A stretch of 45,110 nt of DNA from Bacteroidota bacterium. GTDB taxonomy: Bacteria; Bacteroidota; Bacteroidia; Chitinophagales; Chitinophagaceae. The translations under genes were made by a program, and so were the position numbers. Shown in pieces: positions 3,602-44,322 of this stretch; positions within the stretch are counted from its first letter, which is position 1, and the number at the start of each line of letters is the position of its first letter. Where the stretch lies: NCBI GenBank assembly GCA_016868455.1, contig VGGV01000018.1, positions 1 to 45,110 on the forward strand. The letters run 5' to 3'. The notes below the pieces were generated by a model. The model was not told the DNA's origin. It searched no databases and was given only the letters and a program-made list of their open reading frames with translations.

Positions 3602-3657
3602 ACAGCCGTAAGCCATCAGCCATGATATGAGCCGCCAGCTAAAGGCAAAAAGCAAAA
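3602..3657 (+). repeat. 7-base-period repeat in the rimP-nusA spacer
   Basis: AGCC-type words (AGCC, AGCC, AGCC, then AGCC, AGCT, GGCA, AGCA) begin at 3604, 3611, 3618, 3630, 3637, 3644 and 3651. That is a strict 7-base step apart from one 12-base jump. The words fit AGCYNNN, as in the arrays around 42371-42816 and inside cysS. The unit fills nearly the whole spacer. Confidence 0.6.
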
Positions 3658-41245: not shown

Positions 41246-42367
41246 ATGGCCAGCCGGTTCCGGATCTTCACCAAGAAGGTTTTCATCATTTCCAACATCG
41301 TATTGGTGTTTCTTTTCCTGTTGTCATGCCTGGCGCCCTACACCAACCCCCAAAAAGGATGGGTGATAGCTTTCCTGGGGCTGGCATTTCCTTTATTACT
41401 GCTGCTGAGCCTGCTTTGTATTGCAGGCTGGATTATCATCCTGCGGCCCCGCTATGCATGGATCTCAGGCATTTCTTTATTGTTCAGCATTAAAAGTGTA
41501 AGCGTATTTTTTGCCTTTCATGGCGGCAGCGGGTTTGATTACAAAAAGCAACCCGGCACCCTGCGGGTGGCAACCTGGAATGTGGCCCGGTTCATTGAAT
41601 TAAAAAGGAATAACAATAAGGGAAGCCAGAAGCGTTTGCAGATGTTTGAGCTCATCCGCCAGCAACATGCGGATGTGCTCTGCCTGCAGGAGTTTTATAC
41701 TTCCATGGATTCAAATTATTATAATAATATTCTTCCCCTACAAAAAGACCTCGGCTATCCGTACTTCTACTTTTCTTTTGATGAAGACTGGGATAATTAT
41801 TATTACAGTTCCATTATTTTTTCCCGCTACCCTTTTATTGACACCGGCCGTACCCGGTACCCCCGCCCCAGTTTGCCCGATGTGCTGCTGTATGCAGATA
41901 TTAAAATGGGTGATGACACAGTAAGGATATACACCACCCACCTGCAGTCAAACCAGCTGGGCAAATTTGATTACGACCGTATACGCAAAATCAAAAGCGG
42001 TGAAGACAGCCTGGTGGCAAATTCCAGAAGCATACTGGGGAAGGTCCGGAAAGGATTCTCCCGCCGCAATATCCAGGCCGGGGTGGTAAAAGAGGTAATA
42101 ACAAACAGCCCCCATCCCTACCTTTTATGTATTGACATGAACGATGTGCCCAACTCCTATACCTACTCCACGGTGGGGTCCGGCCTGCAGGATGCATTCC
42201 TTAAAAAGGGTTTTGGCATCGGCCGCACTTTTACCGGATTGTCACCTACCCTCCGGATTGATTACATCTTCGCCGACAAACATTTCAGGATAAAACAGTT
42301 TAACAGGGTGGCGAAATTCCTGAGCGACCATTTTATGCTGGTGGCAGATGTGGAGTTGAGGGAATAG
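41246..42367 (+). CDS. membrane-anchored endonuclease/exonuclease/phosphatase family hydrolase
   Basis: The 373-residue protein has three hydrophobic helices at the N-terminus (about 13-30, 38-70, 75-92) and a C-terminal EEP domain (about 105-373). EEP motifs are TWNVARF, VLCLQEFY (metal-binding glutamate), YTTHLQSNQ, LCIDMNDVP and the final DYIFADK with SDHFMLVADV (catalytic Asp-His). The substrate may be a nucleic acid, phospholipid or inositol phosphate; the active site appears to face the periplasm. It lies 52 bases after the second rhomboid, behind a spacer with two GTGAAAT words 9 bases apart. Confidence 0.88.
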   Translation: MASRFRIFTKKVFIISNIVLVFLFLLSCLAPYTNPQKGWVIAFLGLAFPLLLLLSLLCIAGWIIILRPRYAWISGISLLFSIKSVSVFFAFHGGSGFDYKKQPGTLRVATWNVARFIELKRNNNKGSQKRLQMFELIRQQHADVLCLQEFYTSMDSNYYNNILPLQKDLGYPYFYFSFDEDWDNYYYSSIIFSRYPFIDTGRTRYPRPSLPDVLLYADIKMGDDTVRIYTTHLQSNQLGKFDYDRIRKIKSGEDSLVANSRSILGKVRKGFSRRNIQAGVVKEVITNSPHPYLLCIDMNDVPNSYTYSTVGSGLQDAFLKKGFGIGRTFTGLSPTLRIDYIFADKHFRIKQFNRVAKFLSDHFMLVADVELRE

Positions 42368-42370
42368 CCT

Positions 42371-42397
42371 CAAACTACAGGCTGTCGGCTGCATGCA
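42371..42397 (-). repeat. left inverted copy of the 7-base-period repeat (AGCYNNN)
   Basis: On the minus strand, words AGCC, AGCC and AGTT are spaced exactly 7 bases (plus-strand starts 42387, 42380, 42373). Read in this direction, 16 of 22 bases match the right-hand copy at 42794-42816. It follows the EEP gene stop and lies about 30 bases before the four-helix-bundle gene. Confidence 0.55.
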
Positions 42398-42411
42398 AAA
42401 AACGTTTCATT

Positions 42412-42419
42412 TATCTTTA
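42412..42419 (+). promoter_or_regulatory. -7-like box for the four-helix-bundle gene
   Basis: TATCTTTA is a 7/8 match to TAnnTTTG and ends seven bases before the ATG at 42427. Confidence 0.3.
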
Positions 42420-42426
42420 ATCAAAA

Positions 42427-42780
42427 ATGAAAAATTTTAAACGATTGCTGATTGGGCAAAAAGGATTTGAAATTGCAGTGCAATCATTCAAACTTGTTGA
42501 AACTTTCCCAAAAGAAGAAAAATTTGGTCTTTCCAGCCAAATTACAAGAGCTTCCGTTTCTATTCCATCCAATATTGCAGAAGGAAGCAGCCGGACAAGC
42601 GAAAAAGAGTATAACAGGTTCGTTGAAATATCGCTTGGTTCTTCTTTTGAACTGGAAACCCAATTGTTGATAGCAGAGACAGTAAAATATGGTGATGAAA
42701 AAGTAAGATTGAAAATGTTACAGTCCGTAAGCGATGAACAGAAAATGCTTGTTTCTTTTATGACTAAGCTGAACAAATAA
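42427..42780 (+). CDS. four-helix-bundle protein (23S rRNA intervening-sequence protein family)
   Basis: The 117-residue helical protein matches the family first seen in intervening sequences of 23S rRNA genes (S23/IVP, Pfam PF05635), related to the Avd accessory protein of diversity-generating retroelements. Diagnostic segments are FKLVETFPKEEKFGLSSQI, RASVSIPSNIAEGSSR and FVEISLGSSFELETQL. Such genes are scattered among Bacteroidota chromosomes; their role outside retroelements is unknown. Here there is no reverse transcriptase, and the gene is bracketed by inverted copies of the 7-base-period repeat (42371-42397 and 42784-42816). Confidence 0.92.
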   Translation: MKNFKRLLIGQKGFEIAVQSFKLVETFPKEEKFGLSSQITRASVSIPSNIAEGSSRTSEKEYNRFVEISLGSSFELETQLLIAETVKYGDEKVRLKMLQSVSDEQKMLVSFMTKLNK

Positions 42781-42783
42781 TTC

Positions 42784-42816
42784 AGCTTGCAGTTTGTAGC
42801 TAAAAGCCTGAAGCTT
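42784..42816 (+). repeat. right copy of the 7-base-period repeat, upstream of cysS
   Basis: AGCT, AGTT, AGCT, AGCC and AGCT start at 42784, 42791, 42798, 42805 and 42812, exactly 7 bases apart. The last 23 bases match 20 of 23 bases of the arm inside cysS (43925-43947). The array begins 4 bases after the four-helix-bundle stop and runs into the cysS -7 box. Confidence 0.7.
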
Positions 42817-42823
42817 ATTTTTG
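42816..42823 (+). promoter_or_regulatory. -7 box 5 bases before cysS
   Basis: TATTTTTG matches TAnnTTTG exactly, directly joins the repeat array and ends five bases before the ATG at 42829. Confidence 0.5.
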
Positions 42824-42828
42824 TACCA

Positions 42829-44322
42829 ATGGACGAACTAAAAATTTATAACTCGTATTCAAGACAAAAGGAGGTTTTCAAACCCATCACCCCCGGCCAT
42901 GTGGGCATGTATGTGTGCGGGACCACGGTAAGCGGCGAAAGCCACCTGGGTCATGCTAGGCCTTACATCACTTTTGATGTTATTTACCGCTACCTGATGC
43001 ACCTCGGGTATAAAGTGCGGTATGTGCGCAATATTACCGATGCGGGTCATTTTGAAGAAGAAGGCCGTGAGGCAGAAGATAAAATTTCAAAGAAAGCCGT
43101 GCTGGAAAAACTGGAGCCAATGGAACTGGTAACCAAGTACACCAATCTTTTTCACTGGGCAATGGAGCAGTTCAATACGCTGAAGCCCAGTATTGAACCC
43201 ACCGCCACCGGTCATATTGTGGAGCAAATTGAAATGATTAAAAAAATCATTGATGCGGGTTATGCGTATGAAGTAAATGGCTCAGTATATTTTGATGTAA
43301 AGAAATATGCCGCCTCCCATGATTACGGGAAACTGAGCGGCCGGGTGCTGGAAGACCTGCTGGAAACCACCCGTGAGCTGGATGGCCAGGAAGAAAAAAG
43401 AAATACTGCCGATTTTGCCCTATGGAAAAATGCGTCACCGGAACATATTATGCGCTGGCAAAGCCCCTGGGGTGTGGGCTTCCCCGGCTGGCATATTGAA
43501 TGCTCGGCCATGGCGACAAAATACCTGGGAGCTCAATTCGATATTCACGGCGGAGGCATGGACCTGTTGTTCCCGCATCATGAAAGTGAGGTTGCACAGA
43601 GTACCATCTGCAACCATTCGGCTCCGGTGCGGTACTGGATACATAACAATATGATCACCATTGACGGCCGCAAGATGGGCAAGAGTTATAACAATGTGAT
43701 CAAACTGTCCGAGCTGTTCACCGGCGATCACCCGATGCTGGCCAAAGCCTATCATCCCATGGTGATCCGGTTCTTCATCCTGCAAACGCATTACCGCAGC
43801 ACACTCGATTTTAGTAACGATGCGCTGCAGGCGGCAGAGAAGGGATTGAAGCGGTTGTGGGAAGCATATGAGAAGCTGCGAGCCATTAGCTACAAGCCAC
43901 AAGATGGTTCAGTAGATAAGGAGCTTGAAGCTAATTGCCTGAAGCTTGTAGCTGAATTCGATGAATTCATGAATGATGATTTTGGAACAGCGAGGGTGCT
44001 GGCCAATATGTTTGAACTGGTTCCATTTATCAATTCCATGAAGGATAATATCATTCCGGTTTCGGCAATCAGCAAAGAAACATTTGAACTGCTGCAAAAG
44101 CAGATGAAGGTATATGTGGAAGATATTCTTGGATTGAAGAGTGTGACCGAAGCCAATAATGAAAAACTGAAAGGGGTGATGAACCTGCTGATTGAAATCC
44201 GGAAAGAGGCAAAGGATAAAAAAGATTTTGCTACCAGCGATAAAATAAGAAACCAGCTTCAGCAGATGGGTATTTTACTTAAAGATGAGAAAGACGGGGG
44301 AATGAGCTGGACGGCCTTCTAA
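42829..44322 (+). CDS. cysS: cysteinyl-tRNA synthetase
   Basis: CysRS charges tRNA-Cys. The ATG at 42829 gives 497 residues. Zinc and signature elements are [21 protein letters not shown] (HIGH motif), [26 protein letters not shown] and KMGKSYNN (KMSKS motif). The C-terminal helical anticodon domain contains an in-frame stretch (about residues 349-375, [20 protein letters not shown] and the preceding LRAISYKP) encoded by two inverted arms of the 7-base repeat. The frame stays open and the rest of the domain is normal, so the enzyme is expected to work. Confidence 0.97.
43873..43955. repeat. inverted pair of 7-base-period repeats inside cysS
   Basis: Arm 1 (43873-43898) has AGCT/AGCC words at 43874, 43881, 43888 and 43895. 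Arm 2 (43922-43955) has AGCT/TGCC words at 43922, 43929, 43936, 43943 and 43950. Arm 1 read on the minus strand matches arm 2 at 20 of 26 positions. Three 7-base units equal seven codons, so the array encodes a seven-residue (helix-compatible) period. Confidence 0.7.

Follow-up and report, generated by a model that had tools for sequence, protein, structure and literature searches.

Inverted, in-register arrays of seven-base words around genes of the IVP (PF05635) family in Bacteroidota and other bacterial groups

The locus between an EEP-family gene and cysS

The window, by which we mean the whole 45,110-nucleotide stretch of DNA that was analysed, carries between a gene of the endonuclease/exonuclease/phosphatase (EEP) family and cysS a short gene of the IVP, or four-helix-bundle, family, with one heptad-periodic array on either side (Table 1). 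All three genes share one strand. Profile searches assigned the short open reading frame to PF05635 (110 bits) and TIGR02436 (109 bits). The right array reads AGCTTGC, AGTTTGT, AGCTAAA, AGCCTGA, AGCTTAT, four AGCY words and one AGTT word, and the left array, read in minus sense (42370-42390), consists of AGCCGAC, AGCCTGT and AGTTTGA, two AGCY words and one AGTT word. The oppositely oriented AGCYNNN arrays that the preliminary description of this DNA had reported on both sides of the gene are therefore real, with one AGTT word per side. An alternative TTG start of cysS at 42787 falls within the right arm.

Table 1. Coordinates of the features of the window
Feature	Position	Strand	Remarks
Whole unit	42365..42818	+	Left arm, IVP gene, right arm; EEP-family gene 5′, cysS 3′
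Left arm, heptad-periodic	42365..42393	-	Start = stop codon of EEP gene; lag-7 identity 11/22, 17/5000 shuffles
IVP / four-helix-bundle gene, 117 aa	42427..42780	+	PF05635 E 7.8e-32; TIGR02436
Right arm, five heptads, inverted relative to left arm	42784..42818	+	Lag-7 identity 16/28, 0/5000 shuffles
Upstream host gene, EEP family	41246..42367	+	PF03372; stop codon 42365-42367
Downstream host gene cysS	42829..44322	+	TIGR00435; likely in-frame ATG 42829 read from sequence
Left arm of ORF-less heptad hairpin within cysS	43874..43901	+	Inverted match, 2/2000 shuffles as good
Right arm of ORF-less hairpin within cysS	43922..43956	+	AGCY array
Single AGCY array, three words	3604..3624	+	

Each arm repeats itself every seven bases well above chance. 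The match of one arm to the other is weak at this locus: 16 of 20 bases agree, which 82 of 2000 shuffles equalled, and the arm-pair score of 20 is under the threshold of 28 used below; the predicted fold of the unit pairs part of its two arms. When AGCY arrays were counted across the window as at least four words with one gap permitted, we obtained four rows, corresponding to three places of which one matched on both strands, and the simulated mean was 0.0 (40 simulations for each of three Markov orders). As the preliminary description had noted, the AGCY repeat also occurs within cysS; there it forms both arms of a hairpin. The array at 3604-3624 is likewise present, at what would be the rimP-nusA site of that description. 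The genome from which the window comes (2.64 Mb) has 13 PF05635 matches, and by eye nearly every one is flanked by inverted arrays, with words unlike each other.

It had been proposed that syntenic EEP-cysS spacers be compared for the exact ends of an insertion. Among 41 relatives with a cysS match, the IVP gene is absent from the junction in all 29 whose locus was fetched, so that it was most likely gained in the window's lineage, and all of the relatives' spacers except that of L090 are too short for an IVP gene. The ends themselves did not emerge: no target site duplication or excision product was found, and the nearest empty sites, L083 and L084, are too diverged at the junction. The spacer of L090, from the same genus, holds GATGTAC-type heptad arrays without an IVP match. 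Nine of 30 spacers, each of at least 148 bases (L086-L090, L092-L094 and L096), contain 5′ of cysS a short ORF in which several Cys codons follow one another (e.g. MYAAYLHTCCCPSRD, MSYYFIHTCCCCPFRG); no such ORF was found in the window, whose spacer is occupied by the IVP unit. This ORF looks like a Cys leader peptide, and it could regulate cysS.

Inverted word arrays around IVP genes

Arm pairs were scored by comparing the 200 bases left of each gene with the reverse complement of the 200 bases to its right, with a threshold of 28. An initial set of 81 loci from the window's genome and its relatives covers 82 of 93 PF05635 matches, two pieces being joined as L080; many of the 11 matches outside it are near contig ends or fragmentary, and in some of the 81 loci the gene is interrupted by a stop (e.g. 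L003, L018, L021, L022, L032). The mean score was 35.0 for own arm pairs versus 17.9 for mismatched ones, and the permuted mean never exceeded 20.5 in 5000 permutations. A score of at least 28 was reached by 54 of the 81 own pairs versus 1.5% of mismatched pairs (1.8% of the 654 mismatched within one genome), the own partner took the top rank in 42 of 81 rows, and in direct orientation eight of 81 loci scored as high. Arms match their own partner and mostly not those of other copies, so that these loci share no conserved terminal inverted repeat sequence of the kind that insertion sequences carry.

The same arms were found in named genomes, for which we used the best 80 of 287 relatives, a set that leans to kin of its two query proteins. 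After two loci that were too short had been left out, 69 of 78 reached the threshold versus 3.3% of mismatched pairs. With groups assigned from record titles, and within these best 80 of 287, this held for Bacteroidota (35 of 40), Pseudomonadota (8/8), Desulfobacterota/Geobacter (3/3), Spirochaetota (2/2), Acidobacteriota (5/5), Planctomycetota (5/6), Cyanobacteria/Melainabacteria (3/3), Patescibacteria (3/3) and others (5/8), that is, for Bacteroidota and no fewer than seven further groups. Other open reading frames seldom have such arms: 18 of 370 control ORFs at the named loci reached 28, as did three of 171 short ones and none of 36 in the window. No rRNA match was found in the 33 non-Bacteroidota loci scanned; on one Gemmataceae contig a group II intron match (RF00029, L141:3637-3736) lies about 2 kb from the gene.

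Leaving out the two too-short loci and three records identical to other loci gives a set of 156, of which 123 have clear arms and 33 score under the threshold. With one locus per site, in sets compiled by hand, 84 of 113 reached 28 versus seven of 1130 shuffles. The preliminary description had staked its link between PF05635 genes and heptamers on an enrichment of heptamer arrays beside these genes, and for heptad arrays in general that enrichment is seen. Overall, across many phyla, the majority of the IVP genes examined lie between inverted, in-register arms of 7- or 8-base words, and the window's locus is one case of this wider pattern.

The anatomy of the arms was read from the 123 loci in which they are clear. 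Self-identity was 0.59 at lag 7, versus 0.33 after shuffling, and 0.57 and 0.41 at lags 14 and 8, and the best period was 7 or 14 in 88 loci and 8 in 28; the 8-base period is also rarer in the genome tables, which sum to 84 AGT-type matches versus 2478 with period 7. The two arms of a locus are ordered copies, with an identity between them of 0.88 in register versus 0.64-0.65 one word off (94-95 gapless arms), so that both rhythm and register describe a stem of complementary degenerate heptamers. The aligned arms mostly have three to six words (mode 4), and the loop between them has a median of 422 bases. On the gene's strand the left arm contains 9% C and 28% G; G exceeds C in 103 of 123 loci and falls below it in 13 (72 and 12 of 87 with one per site), giving a predominant polarity with the G-rich, C-poor arm 5′ of the gene.

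The words themselves differ from site to site. At the nuoC-nuoD spacer (names read from flanking sequence) of four Pseudomonadota loci, the words differ while own arms match, with own scores of 38-52 and a cross mean of 22.8. In L008/L033 and L143/L148 the cross pairs equal or exceed the own pairs, and when all same-site sets are pooled the cross score of 34.3 comes near the own score of 40.3, partly an effect of words common to species that are close relatives. Among L120, L122 and L126, the left arm of L126 is apparently two words shorter than that of L122 and the right arm is unchanged, as expected of whole-word indels in one arm. A Flavobacterium unit (L156:4890-5600) shows an apparent tandem partial duplication of the gene's 3′ part followed by a second right arm.

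The AGCYNNN word that the preliminary description had singled out lies beside just ten of the 156 PF05635 genes, and nearly each site has its own word. AGCYNNN is thereby rejected as a specific target, and the link of the protein family holds for heptad arrays in general and is wrong for this word in particular. The suggestion that the heptamer marks nucleic acid on which the protein acts is not supported: below 70% protein identity, word likeness bears no useful relation to protein identity (Spearman 0.03; 7021 pairs from 119 of 123 proteins, the other four having internal stops), and such proteins have unrelated words, which speaks against word-specific binding by the IVP protein.

Units sit predominantly in sense between co-directional genes. 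Among 144 assignable loci of the 156 (12 were unassignable), both neighbours lie on the strand of the IVP gene in 110, both on the opposite strand in eight, and 26 are mixed; with one locus per site (n = 113), 51 are on the same strand, six opposite, 11 mixed, 40 ambiguous and five too short.

Dispersed arrays and the IVP protein

Heptad arrays also occur away from IVP genes. Counted as four successive AGTNNNN words in 42 genomes of the genus, they are present in 27 of 30 PF05635-bearing versus none of 12 gene-less genomes (Fisher 4e-8), and in a phylum sample of 148 genomes in 99 of 116 gene-bearing versus nine of 32 gene-less ones (Fisher 1.3e-9; the gene-less status of 12 of the 32 was inferred from the array list). 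Of the gene-less phylum genomes with arrays, G142 has 281 matches, G152 has 41 and the others 1-14. A search with TIGR02436 of nine gene-negative genomes, including G142 and G152, found no hidden IVP gene above the cut-off; arrays without the gene in these two possibly reflect recent loss or another array maker. Genome size is a possible confounder, as the gene-less genomes of the genus are 1.5-2.6 Mb, and size and lifestyle may account for part of the co-occurrence. Small gene-bearing genomes also have arrays, of AGT type in G023, G007, G029 and G043 (one match) and of backward type in G046 and G048. In G046, G048, G023 and G007, which are small and have one or two IVP genes, TGANNNN backward arrays outnumber AGT arrays.

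Short ORF-less hairpins of AGT words follow the order of the arms (AGT..ACT) in 118 matches from 12 of the 42 genomes, all with IVP genes; many of these matches are repeat hits to a single hairpin, on either strand or in different registers. In the opposite order there were two matches, in one genome. TGA-type words, used as control columns, gave seven matches in arm-like and five in opposite order, so that the polarity of ORF-less hairpins is established for AGT words only. Beyond the common word, no pairing by word order was found in these hairpins by the register test (identity 0.39 in register, 0.37 shifted) or the own versus cross test (21.7 versus 21.5). Among 14 of the non-IVP array sites listed for the window's genome, two have an inverted second AGT array nearby and the remainder mostly have no clear partner.

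The hairpin within cysS is present in altered form in L083, weakly in L085 (equalled by 70 of 2000 shuffles) and is absent from L084, and cysS has the same length in the window, L083 and L084 despite this presence and absence. By eye, the last base of most words differs between the window and L083 in both arms. Template switching is known to homogenise the arms of inverted repeats, and these differences fit an origin of the hairpin by rewriting, not insertion, in agreement with template switching between inverted arms.

The arms could also be no more than a mutational by-product, template switching and slippage having spread heptad hairpins in certain genomes, among which IVP genes lie by chance. 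The unchanged length of cysS favours this account, as do the arrays in G142, G152 and the seven further genomes without the gene. It is at odds with how seldom other genes at the same loci are armed, with the predominant polarity of the arms relative to the gene and with the lack of AGT arrays in all 12 gene-less genomes of the genus, and we consider it unlikely.

The protein in the middle of the unit is under purifying selection in the two same-site sets tested, with dN/dS of 0.062 in Flavobacterium (36 pairs) and 0.064 in Chryseobacterium (10 pairs). A structure model from a 46-sequence alignment of the window's protein and its relatives has a mean pLDDT of 95.7 and is a four-helix bundle; a single-sequence model (pLDDT 39) was set aside in its favour. 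The best PDB matches of the model are 2gsc and 2rld, followed by the diversity-generating retroelement (DGR) complexes in 8ub8 and by Avd in 4dwl, so that an Avd-type fold is predicted, at weak E-values (8ub8_C, TMq 0.78, E 0.036; 4dwl_D, TMq 0.75, E 0.13). A weak profile match to Avd was also seen (phrog_3206, E 0.0026). Avd is a pentamer in solution and binds nucleic acid. Five chains are present in each of 2gsc and 2rld; one word per subunit of a pentamer is nevertheless unsupported by the arm lengths given above. PF05635 is the sole Pfam match, with no further, catalytic domain found in the IVP protein by Pfam. The family has earlier been described as Avd-like (PMC10053308).

The nature of the unit

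Several known systems resemble the unit in part. The intervening sequences of 23S and 16S rRNA genes with an S23p/IVP ORF, which have complementary borders and are suspected to be mobile, share with it the PF05635 family, an ORF within complementary ends, a size of about 430 nt and a sporadic distribution (PMC4990558). The layout of an ORF between terminal inverted repeats is seen family-wide, at the 84 of 113 sites, and is weak when the window's locus is taken alone. Unlike rRNA intervening sequences, the present units lie between protein genes, as in the EEP-cysS spacer, and not in an rRNA helix, and their arms are locus-specific arrays of 7-base words without a sign of selection for pairing in the sense RNA. 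REPIN/RAYT systems are alike in having repeats beside a gene and many dispersed ORF-less hairpins per genome, although the hairpins seen here recall the gene's flanks in the order of AGT words and not in that of TGA words or in word-order pairing; they differ in that RAYTs are single-copy tyrosine (Y1) transposases (PMC3116915), whereas the IVP gene matches only PF05635, occurs in many copies per genome and has words that differ among the copies of one genome, with a period of 7 and no conserved repeat sequence shared by flanks and dispersed copies.

The closest likeness to the arms themselves is the P6b stem of the Nostoc tRNA-Leu intron (TDNGATT / NNTGAGT), whose hairpin arms are complementary degenerate heptamer arrays with whole-word indels and class replacement; it sits inside a group I intron, and no link to an IVP gene was found in the available text of that study (PMC4476775). 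The TAACTGA repeats of Beggiatoaceae, Cyanobacteria and some Bacteroidetes are likewise dispersed intergenic heptamer arrays, unlike the present ones in being direct repeats of one fixed word, with no gene link in the part of the source available (PMC4679880). Our literature search, with subscription papers and preprints outside its scope, found no link of the PF05635 family to heptad or inverted repeats; two genome papers, in the text available, merely list the gene (PMC8700078, PMC5524665).

Given the resemblance to rRNA intervening sequences, the unit could be their mRNA version, its arms preserved as an RNA stem of the operon transcript that has the gene as its loop and that RNase III would cut or the IVP protein would bind. 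The unit has the protein family, the stem-loop architecture and the size known from rRNA (PMC4990558), the units lie in sense, and in predicted folds 83% of the bases of left arms pair with the right arm versus 14% with swapped right arms, a test that is partly circular because the 123 arms were picked for complementarity. Sense RNA tolerates G.U and only antisense RNA tolerates A.C, and mutation should yield both equally, so that a sense stem under selection should favour G.U. The mismatches counted were 104 G.U versus 136 A.C in the 123 arms, and 68 versus 85 in the 87 arms with one per site. G.U is not above A.C, which argues against a sense-RNA stem under selection and weakens the simple mRNA form of the explanation to the point that we think it unlikely; we therefore place the arms, tentatively, at the DNA level.

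That the IVP protein is instead a post-transcriptional regulator of transcripts with heptad arrays, to which it would bind, and that the flanks of its own gene serve for autoregulation, strikes us as improbable: the many dispersed arrays in gene-bearing genomes would suit such a role, and TAACTGA heptads have been proposed as regulatory (PMC4679880), but IVP genes of a single genome have different words, shared words are rare among proteins under 70% identity, and the inverted, in-register second arm is left unexplained. That a reverse transcriptase copies the unit via an RNA intermediate, the IVP protein doing what Avd does in DGRs, is very improbable, since the fold match to DGR complexes and Avd, the weak phrog_3206 match and the sense orientation are set against a reverse transcriptase domain (PF00078) in five of 30 gene-bearing versus one of 12 gene-less genomes, no association of a resident enzyme with IVP genes, and none at all in the window's genome.

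There is good support for the unit itself, its period, its predominant polarity and sense placement, and its tendency to occur together with dispersed heptads. The explanation that we prefer, tentatively and as somewhat short of an even chance, is an element akin to the rRNA intervening sequences that lives outside rRNA, with DNA-level ends set by period and self-complementarity and not by sequence. The IVP gene and its two arms would then form one element of about 450-550 bp, kin to the 23S rRNA intervening sequences, whose habitat would be the spacers between protein-coding genes. Its arms would work at the DNA level, the ends being recognised through their period and self-complementarity. 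As to mechanism, we hold with the same reserve, and by inference, that the Avd-like protein may bind the folded arms, as hairpin or single strand, and once bound may promote host DNA synthesis that copies or rewrites them through template switching between arms; mobility belongs among these conjectures. Such rewriting would explain both the turnover of words with the two arms still complementary and the build-up of arrays in gene-bearing genomes. The unit seems to be carried on the transcript of the host operon, its gene presumably promoterless, and such a ride would explain the sense orientation.

Against this element-like explanation stand the gene-less genomes with arrays, the weak arm pair of the window and the loci under the threshold, together with the restriction of hairpin polarity to AGT words, the ORF-less hairpins unpaired by word order, the same-site sets in which cross pairs do as well as own pairs, the lack of any target duplication or excision product among the sites compared, the single Pfam domain of the protein and the possible part of genome size and lifestyle in the co-occurrence. 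The preliminary description had taken gene and arrays to be one mobile unit; the part about the unit is supported and holds well outside the original site, and the unit may be mobile. A bolder form of the same idea, which we regard as doubtful, is that of an element widespread in bacteria whose ends have no sequence of their own, only rhythm, self-complementarity and G-rich polarity, and whose Avd-like protein drives the writing and rewriting of the arms and so scatters heptad arrays and hairpins over the genome.

Earlier accounts of seven-base repeat rows in bacteria, as far as available, leave their origin unexplained (e.g. PMC4679880). Heptad repeats are now tied to a common protein family of obscure function by position, by polarity and by presence and absence across genomes, a tie that gives the repeats a candidate maker and the IVP protein a candidate substrate. 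The old question of whether rRNA intervening sequences are mobile becomes testable in many cultured organisms. If it is true, an element with sequence-less ends would explain the scattered heptamers of Bacteroidota and perhaps also those of Cyanobacteria and Beggiatoaceae. Words that vary while mirror pairing and a seven-letter rhythm stay constant point to an overlooked family of genetic elements.
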